A DNA stretch of 64,000 nt from Belnapia moabensis DSM 16746 (GTDB taxonomy: Bacteria > Pseudomonadota > Alphaproteobacteria > Acetobacterales > Acetobacteraceae). The notes beneath the pieces were generated by a model. The model was not told the origin of the DNA. It made no database searches and saw only the letters and a list, made by a program, of their open reading frames with translations. Each line of letters opens with the position of its first letter. Position 1 is the first letter of the stretch. Position numbers and translations under genes: made by a program. Shown piece after piece: positions 42,694 through 45,333 of the stretch. The stretch is from NCBI RefSeq assembly GCF_000745835.1, contig NZ_JQKB01000004.1, forward strand, positions 124,001 through 188,000, in the 5' to 3' direction.

Positions 42694-43401
42694 ATGACCG
42701 AACGCCCCTTCACCCGCGCCGATCTCGATCCGCTGCGGCGCTGGGACACGCCGACCATCTGCAACGCGCTGGAGCTCGTCGCCCCGGCCCGGCGAGGGCG
42801 CGGCTTCACGCTGAAGCCGTTCACCGTCGCCGACCCCTCGCTGCCGCCGCTCTGCGGCCTGGCGCGCACCGGGCAGATCCGCGCCGCCGCGCCCTCCGGC
42901 CGCACCCGCGAGCAGGACCGCGATGCGCGCATCGGCTGGTACGACTATGTCGCCGATGCCGACCTGCCGACCATCGTCGTCATCGAGGACCTGGACGAGA
43001 GCCCGGGCATCGGCGCCTTCTGGGGCGAGGTGAACAGTGCCATCCACAAGGGGCTCGGCTGCCAGGGCTGCGTCACCAGCGGCTCCTTCCGCGACATCGA
43101 CATGCTGGCGCCGGGCTTCCAGATCATCGGCGGCATGGTGAACCCGAGCCATGCGCATGTGCACATGGTGGATTTCGGGCGCGACGTGATCGTCCACGGC
43201 ATGCCCTGCATGCATGATGACGTGGTGCATGCCGACCGGCACGGCGCCGTCGTCATCCCGGCAGAGGCGGTGCGGCAGCTGCCGGAGGCGATCGACCTCG
43301 TCGCCCGGCGCGAGGCGGTGATCCTCGAGATGGCCAAGCGGGACGACTTCGACATCCACAAGCTGAAGGAGGCGCTCTCGCGGGCGGACGAGATTCACTG
43401 A
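42694..43401 (+). CDS. RraA family protein / HMG-type aldolase
   Basis: This 235-residue protein is of the RraA/4-hydroxy-4-methyl-2-oxoglutarate aldolase family. Members cleave oxaloacetate or HMG-type keto acids using Mg2+. The N-terminus RWDTPTICNALE, the GEVNSAIHKGLGCQGCVTSGSFRDID segment (Arg and Asp of the active site) and DDVVHADRHGAVVIP are present. GGGAGG at 42679-42684 supports the ATG at 42694. The 201 bases to the divergent vgrG gene hold no further gene. On the vgrG side there is only a weak TATGAT element (42518-42523, minus strand). It is followed by a coupled small secreted gene. Confidence 0.85.
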   Translation: MTERPFTRADLDPLRRWDTPTICNALELVAPARRGRGFTLKPFTVADPSLPPLCGLARTGQIRAAAPSGRTREQDRDARIGWYDYVADADLPTIVVIEDLDESPGIGAFWGEVNSAIHKGLGCQGCVTSGSFRDIDMLAPGFQIIGGMVNPSHAHVHMVDFGRDVIVHGMPCMHDDVVHADRHGAVVIPAEAVRQLPEAIDLVARREAVILEMAKRDDFDIHKLKEALSRADEIH

Positions 43402-43778
43402 GGAGGGCGGGCGCCTGCTTCCTCGCGCTGCTGCTGGCCGGGACGGCGGCGGCGGAGCCGGGCTGGGAGGAGCGGCTCGGCCTGCTGGCGCCGGCGCTCA
43501 GGGCCTGCCTTGACGGCGACCTCGGCGCCTATGTCGATGATGTCGGGCCGGCGGCAAATGGGCGGCTCGCCGTGCGGGTGCGGCGCGGGCGGGTGACGGA
43601 GCGCTGCCTGGTCGGCGAGCGGGGGCGGGTGGCGATGCGGCTGACGCTCGCCGATGCGCCGGCGCCGGAGCCGGCGGCGACCGCCTATTTCCTCGAGCGG
43701 CGCTGCGCGGATGCGCGGCGGGTGGCGGCGCCGGACGGGACGGTGCTGGGCTGGCTGGCCTATCCGGCCTGCTCGTAG
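43398..43778 (+). CDS. Small secreted protein with apparent CTG start
   Basis: A 126-residue frame opens with CTG at 43398, overlapping the RraA stop as CTGA. It then reads (M)RRAGACFLALLLAGTAAAEPG, an obvious signal peptide with an AAA cleavage site. The mature protein contains four cysteines (RACLDG, ERCLVG, RRCADA, YPACS) that could form two periplasmic disulfides. No ATG, GTG or TTG precedes the signal peptide in this frame. The first ATG is at 43572, which would remove the signal and half the protein. CTG initiation, coupled to RraA, is the simplest reading. No domain is recognised. Its 3' end overlaps the convergent GGDEF gene by 19 bases. Confidence 0.6.
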   Translation: MRRAGACFLALLLAGTAAAEPGWEERLGLLAPALRACLDGDLGAYVDDVGPAANGRLAVRVRRGRVTERCLVGERGRVAMRLTLADAPAPEPAATAYFLERRCADARRVAAPDGTVLGWLAYPACS

Positions 43779-44752
43779 CGGGCGCTGCGGACCTGATCCT
43801 TACCCCCGGCCTTGGCGGCGTACATCATGGCATCGGCGGCGGCGAGGGCGGCTTCGGCCGAGTCAGGCATGGTCTCGAAGCCGACCGAGCCGATCGAGGC
43901 GGTGACGGGCCAGCCTTCCGCGGCCATGCGCCCGGCAAGCATGCGGCGGATGCGCTCGGCCAGGGCTTCGGCGCGGGCCGTGTCGCCGACGAGGACACAG
44001 AACTCATCGCCGCCAAGCCGGGCCAAGCTATCCGCCTCCCGCGTCGCGGCGCGCAGCACCTCGGCCACGGCGCGGAGCACCGCGTCGCCGGCCGCGTGGC
44101 CGAGCCTGTCGTTGATGCCCTTGAAGCCGTCGAGGTCGCTGAAGATCAGGGTGAAGGGCCGCCGCATGGCGAGCGCCGCGTCGAGCGCCGTCATCAGCGC
44201 GGAGCGGTTGGGCAGACCCGTCAGCCCGTCTGTGACGGCCAGGGCATGCATCCGCCGCATCGCCCGGCGCAGCTCGAGCGCGGTCGAGACCGAGCGGGCG
44301 AGGCCGGAGAGGATGTCCAGCTCCTCCTCGCTGGTCTCGCGCGGGGCGTGGTCGAGCACGCAGAGGGTCCCGAGCGCATAGCCCTCCGCGTTCACGAGCG
44401 GGATGCCGGTATAGGAGCGGAGGCCGGGATTGTCGGTGACCAAGGGGTTGTCGGCGAAGCGCGGATCGGCCCGCATGTCCTGGACCACCAGGGGCTGGTC
44501 CGGTTGCAGGATGGCATGGGCGCAGAAGGCGACGTTCCGCGGCGCCTCGGTGACGTCGAGGCCGTGCCGGGCCTTGGCCCAGATCCGCTCCGCATCGACC
44601 AGCGAGACGAGGGCGATGGGCCGGTGGGTGAGGCGGGCGGCAAGCCGGGCGATATCATCGAACGCGGCCTCGCAGGCGGTGTCGAGCACGGCATAGGACC
44701 GCAGCGCCGCGAGGCGGCCGGCTTCGTCCGAAGGCAATGGGGCGGCTGGCAT
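43760..44752 (-). CDS. GAF-GGDEF diguanylate cyclase
   Basis: This 330-residue cytosolic protein has an N-terminal GAF domain (about 25-155: FDDIARLAARLTHRPIALVSLVDAERIWAK) and a C-terminal GGDEF domain (about 165-325). The active motif is LARLGGDEFCVLV, and an RxxD inhibitory-site motif (READ) lies five residues before it. It should therefore make cyclic di-GMP and be feedback-inhibited. There is no EAL domain. The GAF domain may sense a small molecule or the redox state. It stands alone and is divergent from the thioesterase gene. Confidence 0.9.
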   Translation of the reverse strand: MPAAPLPSDEAGRLAALRSYAVLDTACEAAFDDIARLAARLTHRPIALVSLVDAERIWAKARHGLDVTEAPRNVAFCAHAILQPDQPLVVQDMRADPRFADNPLVTDNPGLRSYTGIPLVNAEGYALGTLCVLDHAPRETSEEELDILSGLARSVSTALELRRAMRRMHALAVTDGLTGLPNRSALMTALDAALAMRRPFTLIFSDLDGFKGINDRLGHAAGDAVLRAVAEVLRAATREADSLARLGGDEFCVLVGDTARAEALAERIRRMLAGRMAAEGWPVTASIGSVGFETMPDSAEAALAAADAMMYAAKAGGKDQVRSARYEQAG

Positions 44753-44883
44753 GGTCCGGGCGATAATCCTGTCGTGTTCGCGGCGATACTAGCACAACCT
44801 GAAGGTGTGGTTCGTACGATTTCCAAGGGGGTGGACAAGCACCGGCTGCTCCGCCGGAATGGCAGGGCAGGATGGGAGGCGAC

Positions 44884-45333
44884 ATGGCGGAGCGGCAGGT
44901 GCTGGCGGTGGTGCGGCCGGATTGGGTCGACCATTACGGCCACATGAACATGGCCTTCTACCTGGCGGTCTTCGACATGGCGACGGACCAGCTCTGGCCG
45001 GGCCTCGGCCTCGGCAAGCCCCTGCATGCGGAGGGGTTCGGCACCTTCGCTGCCGAGACCTGGGTGAACTACGTGCGCGAGGTGCGCGAGGGCATGCCGC
45101 TCGCCTGCACCAGCGAGGTGCTGGCCTATGACGCCAAGCGGCTGATAGCGGTGCACCGGATGCACCATGCGACGGAAGGCTGGCTCGCCGCCGAGAACGA
45201 GGTGCTCTACCTCTGCATGGACCTCTCGGTGCGGCGGGTGGGGCTGTGGCCGGAGCGGGTGCTGGAGCGGTTCGCCGAAGTCTGCACCGGGGCGGCGCCA
45301 CGGCGGCTGGCGCTGCGGCGCCGTGAGGGGTAG
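44884..45333 (+). CDS. Hotdog-fold acyl-CoA thioesterase
   Basis: This 149-residue protein of the 4-hydroxybenzoyl-CoA thioesterase type has the signature VRPDWVDHYGHMNMAFYLAVFDMATDQLW. The Asp/His/Asn cluster in DHYGHMN lies on the active-site helix. GGGAGG at 44874-44879 supports ATG 44884 over the upstream ATG at 44872. Some related proteins are fused to or adjacent to carnitine dehydrogenase, but none is here. The acyl-CoA substrate is unknown. It is convergent with the LprI-like gene, 12 bases away. Confidence 0.85.
   Translation: MAERQVLAVVRPDWVDHYGHMNMAFYLAVFDMATDQLWPGLGLGKPLHAEGFGTFAAETWVNYVREVREGMPLACTSEVLAYDAKRLIAVHRMHHATEGWLAAENEVLYLCMDLSVRRVGLWPERVLERFAEVCTGAAPRRLALRRREG

Follow-up and report, generated by a model that had tools for sequence, protein, structure and literature searches.

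A CTG codon within the stop of an rraA-like gene as the probable start of a small, probably exported protein in Belnapia moabensis and its relatives

Can a bacterial gene for an exported protein start at a CTG codon that lies within the stop of the preceding gene? The question is raised by a locus of Belnapia moabensis DSM 16746, contained in a stretch of 64,000 nucleotides (contig NZ_JQKB01000004.1, positions 124,001 to 188,000), here called the window, to which all coordinates refer. An rraA-like gene (Aldolase/RraA) of 235 codons occupies positions 42694-43401 on the + strand. It matched Pfam PF03737 with an E value of 2.2e-10 and 41.4 bits against a cutoff of 24.5, and its NCBIfam matches all fell under their cut-offs. 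The gene ends with ...GAG ATT CAC TGA, the TGA being located at 43399-43401, and its last histidine codon and stop together contain a CTG at 43398-43400 on the same strand, resulting in a CTGA overlap of 4 nt. The frame opened by this CTG, here named X, reads LRRAGACFLALLLAGTAAAEPGW... and runs for 126 codons up to a stop at 43776-43778. Its translation bore out the sequence-only reading, which had placed a signal peptide in frame directly after CTG 43398. That reading had also stated that no ATG, GTG or TTG precedes the CTG in the X frame; indeed, the frame is open for 60 codons up to the upstream in-frame stop and none of the three codons occurs between. The first canonical start of the frame lies at 43572-43574 (+ strand) and leaves 68 codons, so that the position and length given previously were right, while the codon is a GTG instead of the ATG that had been claimed. 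A GAF-GGDEF gene (Pfam) at 43760-44752 on the - strand converges on X, its 3' end overlapping the last 19 bases of X, and a 4HBT_2 thioesterase-like gene is found at 44872-45333 on the + strand, separated from rraA by X and the - strand gene.

From the window alone, the CTG-started frame is unremarkable against chance. Counted over both strands, CTGA occurs 346 times, and in 24 of these cases the CTG opens a frame of 126 codons or more in which the 57 codons after it are free of ATG, GTG and TTG, as the DNA is GC-rich and long open frames are consequently present. Since so many CTGA sites open similar frames, a comparison with relatives was needed, and it is the conservation found there that strongly argues for X being above chance.

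A first search detected X in 14 of 147 genomes, and a profile search covering 397 genomes of the family detected it in 38. The loci named from 25 contigs include Belnapia arida, B. rosea, B. mucosa and Paeniroseomonas aquatica, and further named loci belong to Roseicella, Siccirubricoccus, Falsiroseomonas and Caldovatus. At 34 of the 38 places X lies directly 3' of rraA, whose stop is TGA in every one of the 34. The overlap of stop and start on one strand, a feature of termination-reinitiation, recurs as an NTGA frame in 30 of these 34 homologues, with C as the first base in 22 and T in 8. The C-type junctions comprise 15 with a signal peptide right after the CTG, four reading CTGATG, one reading CTGnnnGTG and two with the signal peptide far downstream. 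The 15 genomes combining a junction CTG with an immediate signal peptide were defined as the CTG class, the labels being assigned by hand. They belong to four genus groups, namely the window's own (8 genomes), Rhodospirillales assemblies (3), Roseicella (3) and one further assembly. Their signal peptides vary in length and sequence, yet keep the frame with the rraA stop, and the X frame is free of stops in all 15. One of them, the Belnapia MAG RYN_447 (L006/L046), shows first X codons that resemble a tandem duplication (SRRLGRPLLV, SRRLGRPLLL), its signal peptide being longer and still in frame. A local sequencing error in this genome was also considered as the cause of the CTG junction and was rejected; the same junction recurs in separate assemblies, making such an error unlikely.

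Falsiroseomonas-type relatives carry TTG at the junction position. Two of the eight T-type junctions differ in detail: in L062 an ATG occurs two codons downstream of the TTG, and in L050 a stop interrupts the NTGA frame, so that a later start must serve. In seven genomes an ATG lies at the rraA stop or closely follows it. Four of these are the in-frame CTGATG junctions; in the other three (L069, L073, L075) X occupies a different frame, so that the neighbouring gene does not dictate the frame relation.

The comparison of start codons in relatives, proposed as a check of the CTG start, did not indicate a canonical start just upstream. Counting from the CTG, no in-frame ATG, GTG or TTG occurs between codons -20 and +8 in 13 of the 15 CTG-class genomes, the exceptions being a TTG at codon 4 in L046 and a TTG at codon 8 in L053, and codons 1 to 3 are devoid of them in all 15. 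When the interval is widened to begin at the upstream stop and end at codon 19, seven genomes, window included, have none; one of these seven, L047, has a TTG at codon 29, which is still within its long signal peptide. The remaining eight have some other ATG, GTG or TTG in this interval, and this counts against the CTG start. In three of them the codon lies farther upstream, inside rraA (ATG at -44 in L040, GTG at -22 in L045 and L046), L046 having in addition to its TTG at codon 4 a GTG at codon 10 and a TTG at codon 14. The other positions are GTG 16 in L049, GTG 10 in both L051 and L054, the TTG at codon 8 of L053, and ATG 10 with GTG 12 in L056.

X might also start at another non-canonical codon of the signal peptide region, for instance an ATC among the first two codons or a CTG farther on, or from several weak starts. 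L040 and L043 indeed have ATC as codon 2 and L044 has it as codon 1, and the hydrophobic core often contains CTG. In the window, however, no ATT, ATC or ATA occurs before codon 10, which is the next CTG of the frame and falls in the core, so that initiation there would drop the positive n-region. The junction codon is moreover common to all 15 CTG-class genomes, although by class definition. We regard a start of this kind as improbable and the junction CTG as the favoured candidate.

The coding nature of X was evaluated by pooled dN/dS on 28 pairs; of the 15 CTG-class genomes, the eight belonging to the genus group of the window were used. Mature X, 107 residues encoded at 43455-43775 on the + strand, returned a value of 0.29 in its own frame, while four of the five other frames gave 1.83-1.95. 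The remaining one, - strand frame 1, also showed a low ratio (0.38), which counts against the contrast between frames, but it contains stops. As judged from these substitution ratios, mature X is under purifying selection. The signal-peptide part gave scattered values, with several pairs above 1, and is fast-changing.

The same data bear on the GTG at 43572, the choice of a gene caller limited to ATG, GTG and TTG and the first such codon in the X frame, from which a cytosolic protein of 68 codons would be produced. Starting there would remove the signal peptide together with a conserved third of X, residues 20-58, for which the pooled dN/dS was 0.32 (28 pairs); the lost region holds the invariant C37 and the nearly invariant W23, and it is included in the TTG- and ATG-started homologues. 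Translation from 43572, named beforehand as the outcome that would speak against a CTG start, is thus contradicted, and this GTG was rejected as the true start, a role we consider extremely improbable for it. A further possibility is that X is a decaying gene, no longer translated in the CTG genomes, as shortened and decayed-looking X remnants occur behind rraA in some relatives (G330, locus L074, and, by eye, G053, locus L086). With frames free of stops in 15 genomes and a dN/dS of 0.29 among eight, decay appears highly unlikely.

The signal peptide of X corresponds to positions 43398-43454 on the + strand. By eye and hydropathy, it shows RR in the n-region, the core ACFLALLLA, with a Kyte-Doolittle peak of 2.88 over 9 residues, and AAA in the c-region before E, the cleavage site being placed by eye. 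The features of Sec export, i.e. n-region, hydrophobic core and small residues at -3 and -1, are present on the same type of judgement, and X is probably exported. In an alignment of 25 X sequences 16 residues are invariant, four of which are cysteines; the combination of an export signal with four cysteines suggests a disulfide-bonded periplasmic protein.

An AlphaFold2 model of X showed a mean pLDDT of 91.8 and consisted of one helix followed by seven strands. Searches of X against Pfam and NCBIfam returned no family at E values up to 1, those against PDB sequences no match at E up to 1, and that against a plasmid collection no match. With the structural model, no Foldseek match had an E value of 0.001 or less, and none of the 999 chains aligned by VIA-align reached Z 8, the best value being 7.0. 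Weak similarities were returned for BLIP-like and DUF2874 folds, with Foldseek E values of 0.22 (4fr9) and 0.92-1.1 (4k61); the corresponding VIA-align Z scores, 6.0 and 5.8 over model residues 1-69, fall in the background range. As a weakly held guess, X might have a binding or accessory role in the periplasm and not be an enzyme.

Since the X frame is -1 relative to rraA and is open upstream, a -1 ribosomal frameshift at the rraA end might instead produce an RraA-X fusion, with a hydrophobic stretch at the joint and no separate start for X. Inspection by eye of the joint, ATT or ATC followed by CAC TGA, revealed no slippery heptamer of the X XXY YYZ type. The position of the signal peptide, right after the joint, matches the requirement of a free N-terminus, and in L069, L073 and L075 X possesses its own ATG and lies in another frame. 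Frameshifting is accordingly given very little probability.

We consider it quite probable that X is a genuine gene, encoding a small protein for export and starting at CTG 43398 by reinitiation from the rraA end. A ribosome finishing rraA at TGA 43399 would still cover the overlapping CTG, and this ribosome, or its 30S subunit, might reinitiate there with fMet-tRNA. The resulting precursor would read M-RRAGACFLALLLAGTAAA|EPGW, be exported and fold in the periplasm, where disulfides would probably form. In the window's lineage the junction would operate as CTGA, and in the Falsiroseomonas-type genomes as TTGA, through the silent use of CAT for CAC as the last histidine codon of RraA; in other relatives, an ATG at or after the rraA stop can serve as the X start.

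No strong Shine-Dalgarno sequence was found ahead of the junction CTG in the window. The best duplex before it, formed by GCGGGCGGA and ending 9 nt upstream, reached -5.8 kcal/mol, a value within one standard deviation of that calculated for random rraA positions (-4.2 +/- 2.8 kcal/mol). A Shine-Dalgarno-like GAGGAGG occurs at 43400-43406 on the + strand, downstream of the CTG, and no ATG, GTG or TTG of the X frame lies behind it at the usual spacing in the window; as the other junctions compared differ at this place, it is probably a chance motif. In the available part of PMC6728339, strict coupling is described for 13 of 14 overlapping gene pairs tested in Haloferax and E. coli, and the role of the Shine-Dalgarno sequence in those pairs varied by gene. 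A low yield of X is probable, because CUG ranks below AUG, GUG and UUG in E. coli initiation complexes according to the accessible portion of PMC11497404. An easy use of CTG is also spoken against by mycobacteria, in which, as far as the consulted text of PMC4633059 goes, CTG is not enriched as a start. At the level of mutations the two genes are tied together: the change of the junction CTG into CTC would convert the rraA TGA into TCA as well, with loss of the rraA stop, and its change into ATG would replace the last histidine of RraA with glutamine.

The same overlap has consequences for the question whether CTG itself is selected. The first base of the junction NTG is the wobble base of the last RraA histidine codon, so TTG in one frame and CAT in the other are one single observation, and rraA alone could fix C or T at this position. 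Control rraA ends were collected from the 183 matching genomes, a number that includes X-bearing ones, and were chosen mostly by nearness of rraA to that of the window. Among 59 ends without intact X directly behind, 41 carry CAC, 17 CAT and one GAC; the 59 include G012 and G035, in which X does not immediately follow rraA, and G053 with its X remnant. Nine more control ends gave CAC in 7 and CAT in 2, and at some control ends the NTGA frame is occupied by a different gene. The internal histidine codons of rraA in the CTG class are near half and half, with 69 CAC and 65 CAT. As the controls are mostly CAC (41 of the 58 ends with histidine) and the internal codons about equally divided, CAC at the rraA end is favoured even without X, perhaps owing to a stop-codon context effect or to the avoidance of TTGA.

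The codons were also mapped on a tree of 34 rows, a quick one with 7 of its 31 inner branches starred. The last histidine codon undergoes 3 changes, and the seven other histidine columns undergo 2 to 8. In the CTG class the last histidine codon never changes, as is the case for one internal column. A silent change to TTG occurs in none of the 15 genomes, but the class definition excludes it; the TTG genomes sit in another part of the tree. The CTG class needs 5 changes on the tree and not one, which counts against the CTG start. Only L050 carries CAT among the genomes in the tree's CTG part, and it is also the genome with the interrupted NTGA frame. The interpretation of CTG conservation as selection for CTG was rejected as unsupported, since other histidine columns change similarly and the rraA ends lacking X also prefer CAC.

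Other genes were observed at the rraA end. In seven genomes (L100, L102, L103, L106, L113, L121, L122), which belong to genus group g4, a methyltransferase-domain gene follows rraA with a TTGA overlap, the last histidine codon being CAT; the domain was tested in L106 alone (Pfam Methyltransf_24), and in G325 (L110) the same gene seems to be broken early. A thioesterase-like gene occupies the NTGA frame in two further cases, with TTG in G365, where it was named by look, and with CTG in G297, where it matched Pfam 4HBT_2. The latter (L130) follows rraA with CTGACC and has no nearby ATG, a GTG at codon 9 being an alternative; in G441, G416, G370 and G350, from the same genus group as G297, an ATG occurs three codons on. 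Look-alikes of the window's own 4HBT_2 gene lie directly behind rraA in several genomes devoid of X. The G297 junction is possibly a second, independent CTG start, seen in one genome only, and the collection of these junctions suggests the rraA end as a general reinitiation site, a lead rather than a result. A broader version, in which the rraA 3' end (Ile-His-TGA) would be a standing reinitiation site for various downstream genes, the strength of a CTG or TTG start being set by the silent choice of the last histidine codon and CTG being held in Belnapia and Roseicella to keep X scarce relative to RraA, is a speculation that we find rather doubtful.

A CTG kept over several genus groups and separated from TTG by one silent transition would provide a clean natural case for start-codon choice by reinitiating ribosomes. 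Exported proteins of this type would be shortened and wrongly assigned to the cytosol by gene callers that accept no start other than ATG, GTG or TTG; under such callers X would have its export signal cut off.

Among known systems, the rep gene of FIB-type plasmids offers the nearest likeness in start codon. In the accessible part of PMC11983097, a CTG start is argued for related replicons whose annotations mostly show a downstream GTG, and this codon is suggested to give just enough expression. The same portion quotes 20 CTG starts in nearly 85,000 genes, a figure that agrees with the earlier statement that CTG starts are rare in bacteria. The FIB rep CTG, established through mutation and N-terminal analysis, works with a good ribosome-binding site, whereas the putative CTG start of X overlaps a stop codon and is not preceded by a strong Shine-Dalgarno sequence. 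With overlapping gene pairs translated by termination-reinitiation, rraA and X share the arrangement of a stop and a start having bases in common and a downstream gene on the same strand. The examples of the overlapping-pair paper are ATGA and TGATG, CTGA, TTGA and GTGA being absent from its main text, and the coupling of X to rraA is inferred. PMC4648390 deals with a channel produced in eukaryotic cells and was set aside. CUG and UUG are not mentioned in the available portion of PMC12548453, and no described case of a CTGA start/stop overlap was found in the literature searched, although one may still be in print. A start at CTG and an overlap of 4 nt between stop and start are each known; the rraA-X pair would unite them in a form for which no description was found in that literature. 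Finally, start-codon switches between close genomes include a UUG-to-CUG switch on record. According to the part of PMC5622118 consulted, such switches are very rare, 1 of 2,468 ancestral UUG and 2 of 61,358 ancestral AUG; compared with them, the CTG of X seems to persist over many species.
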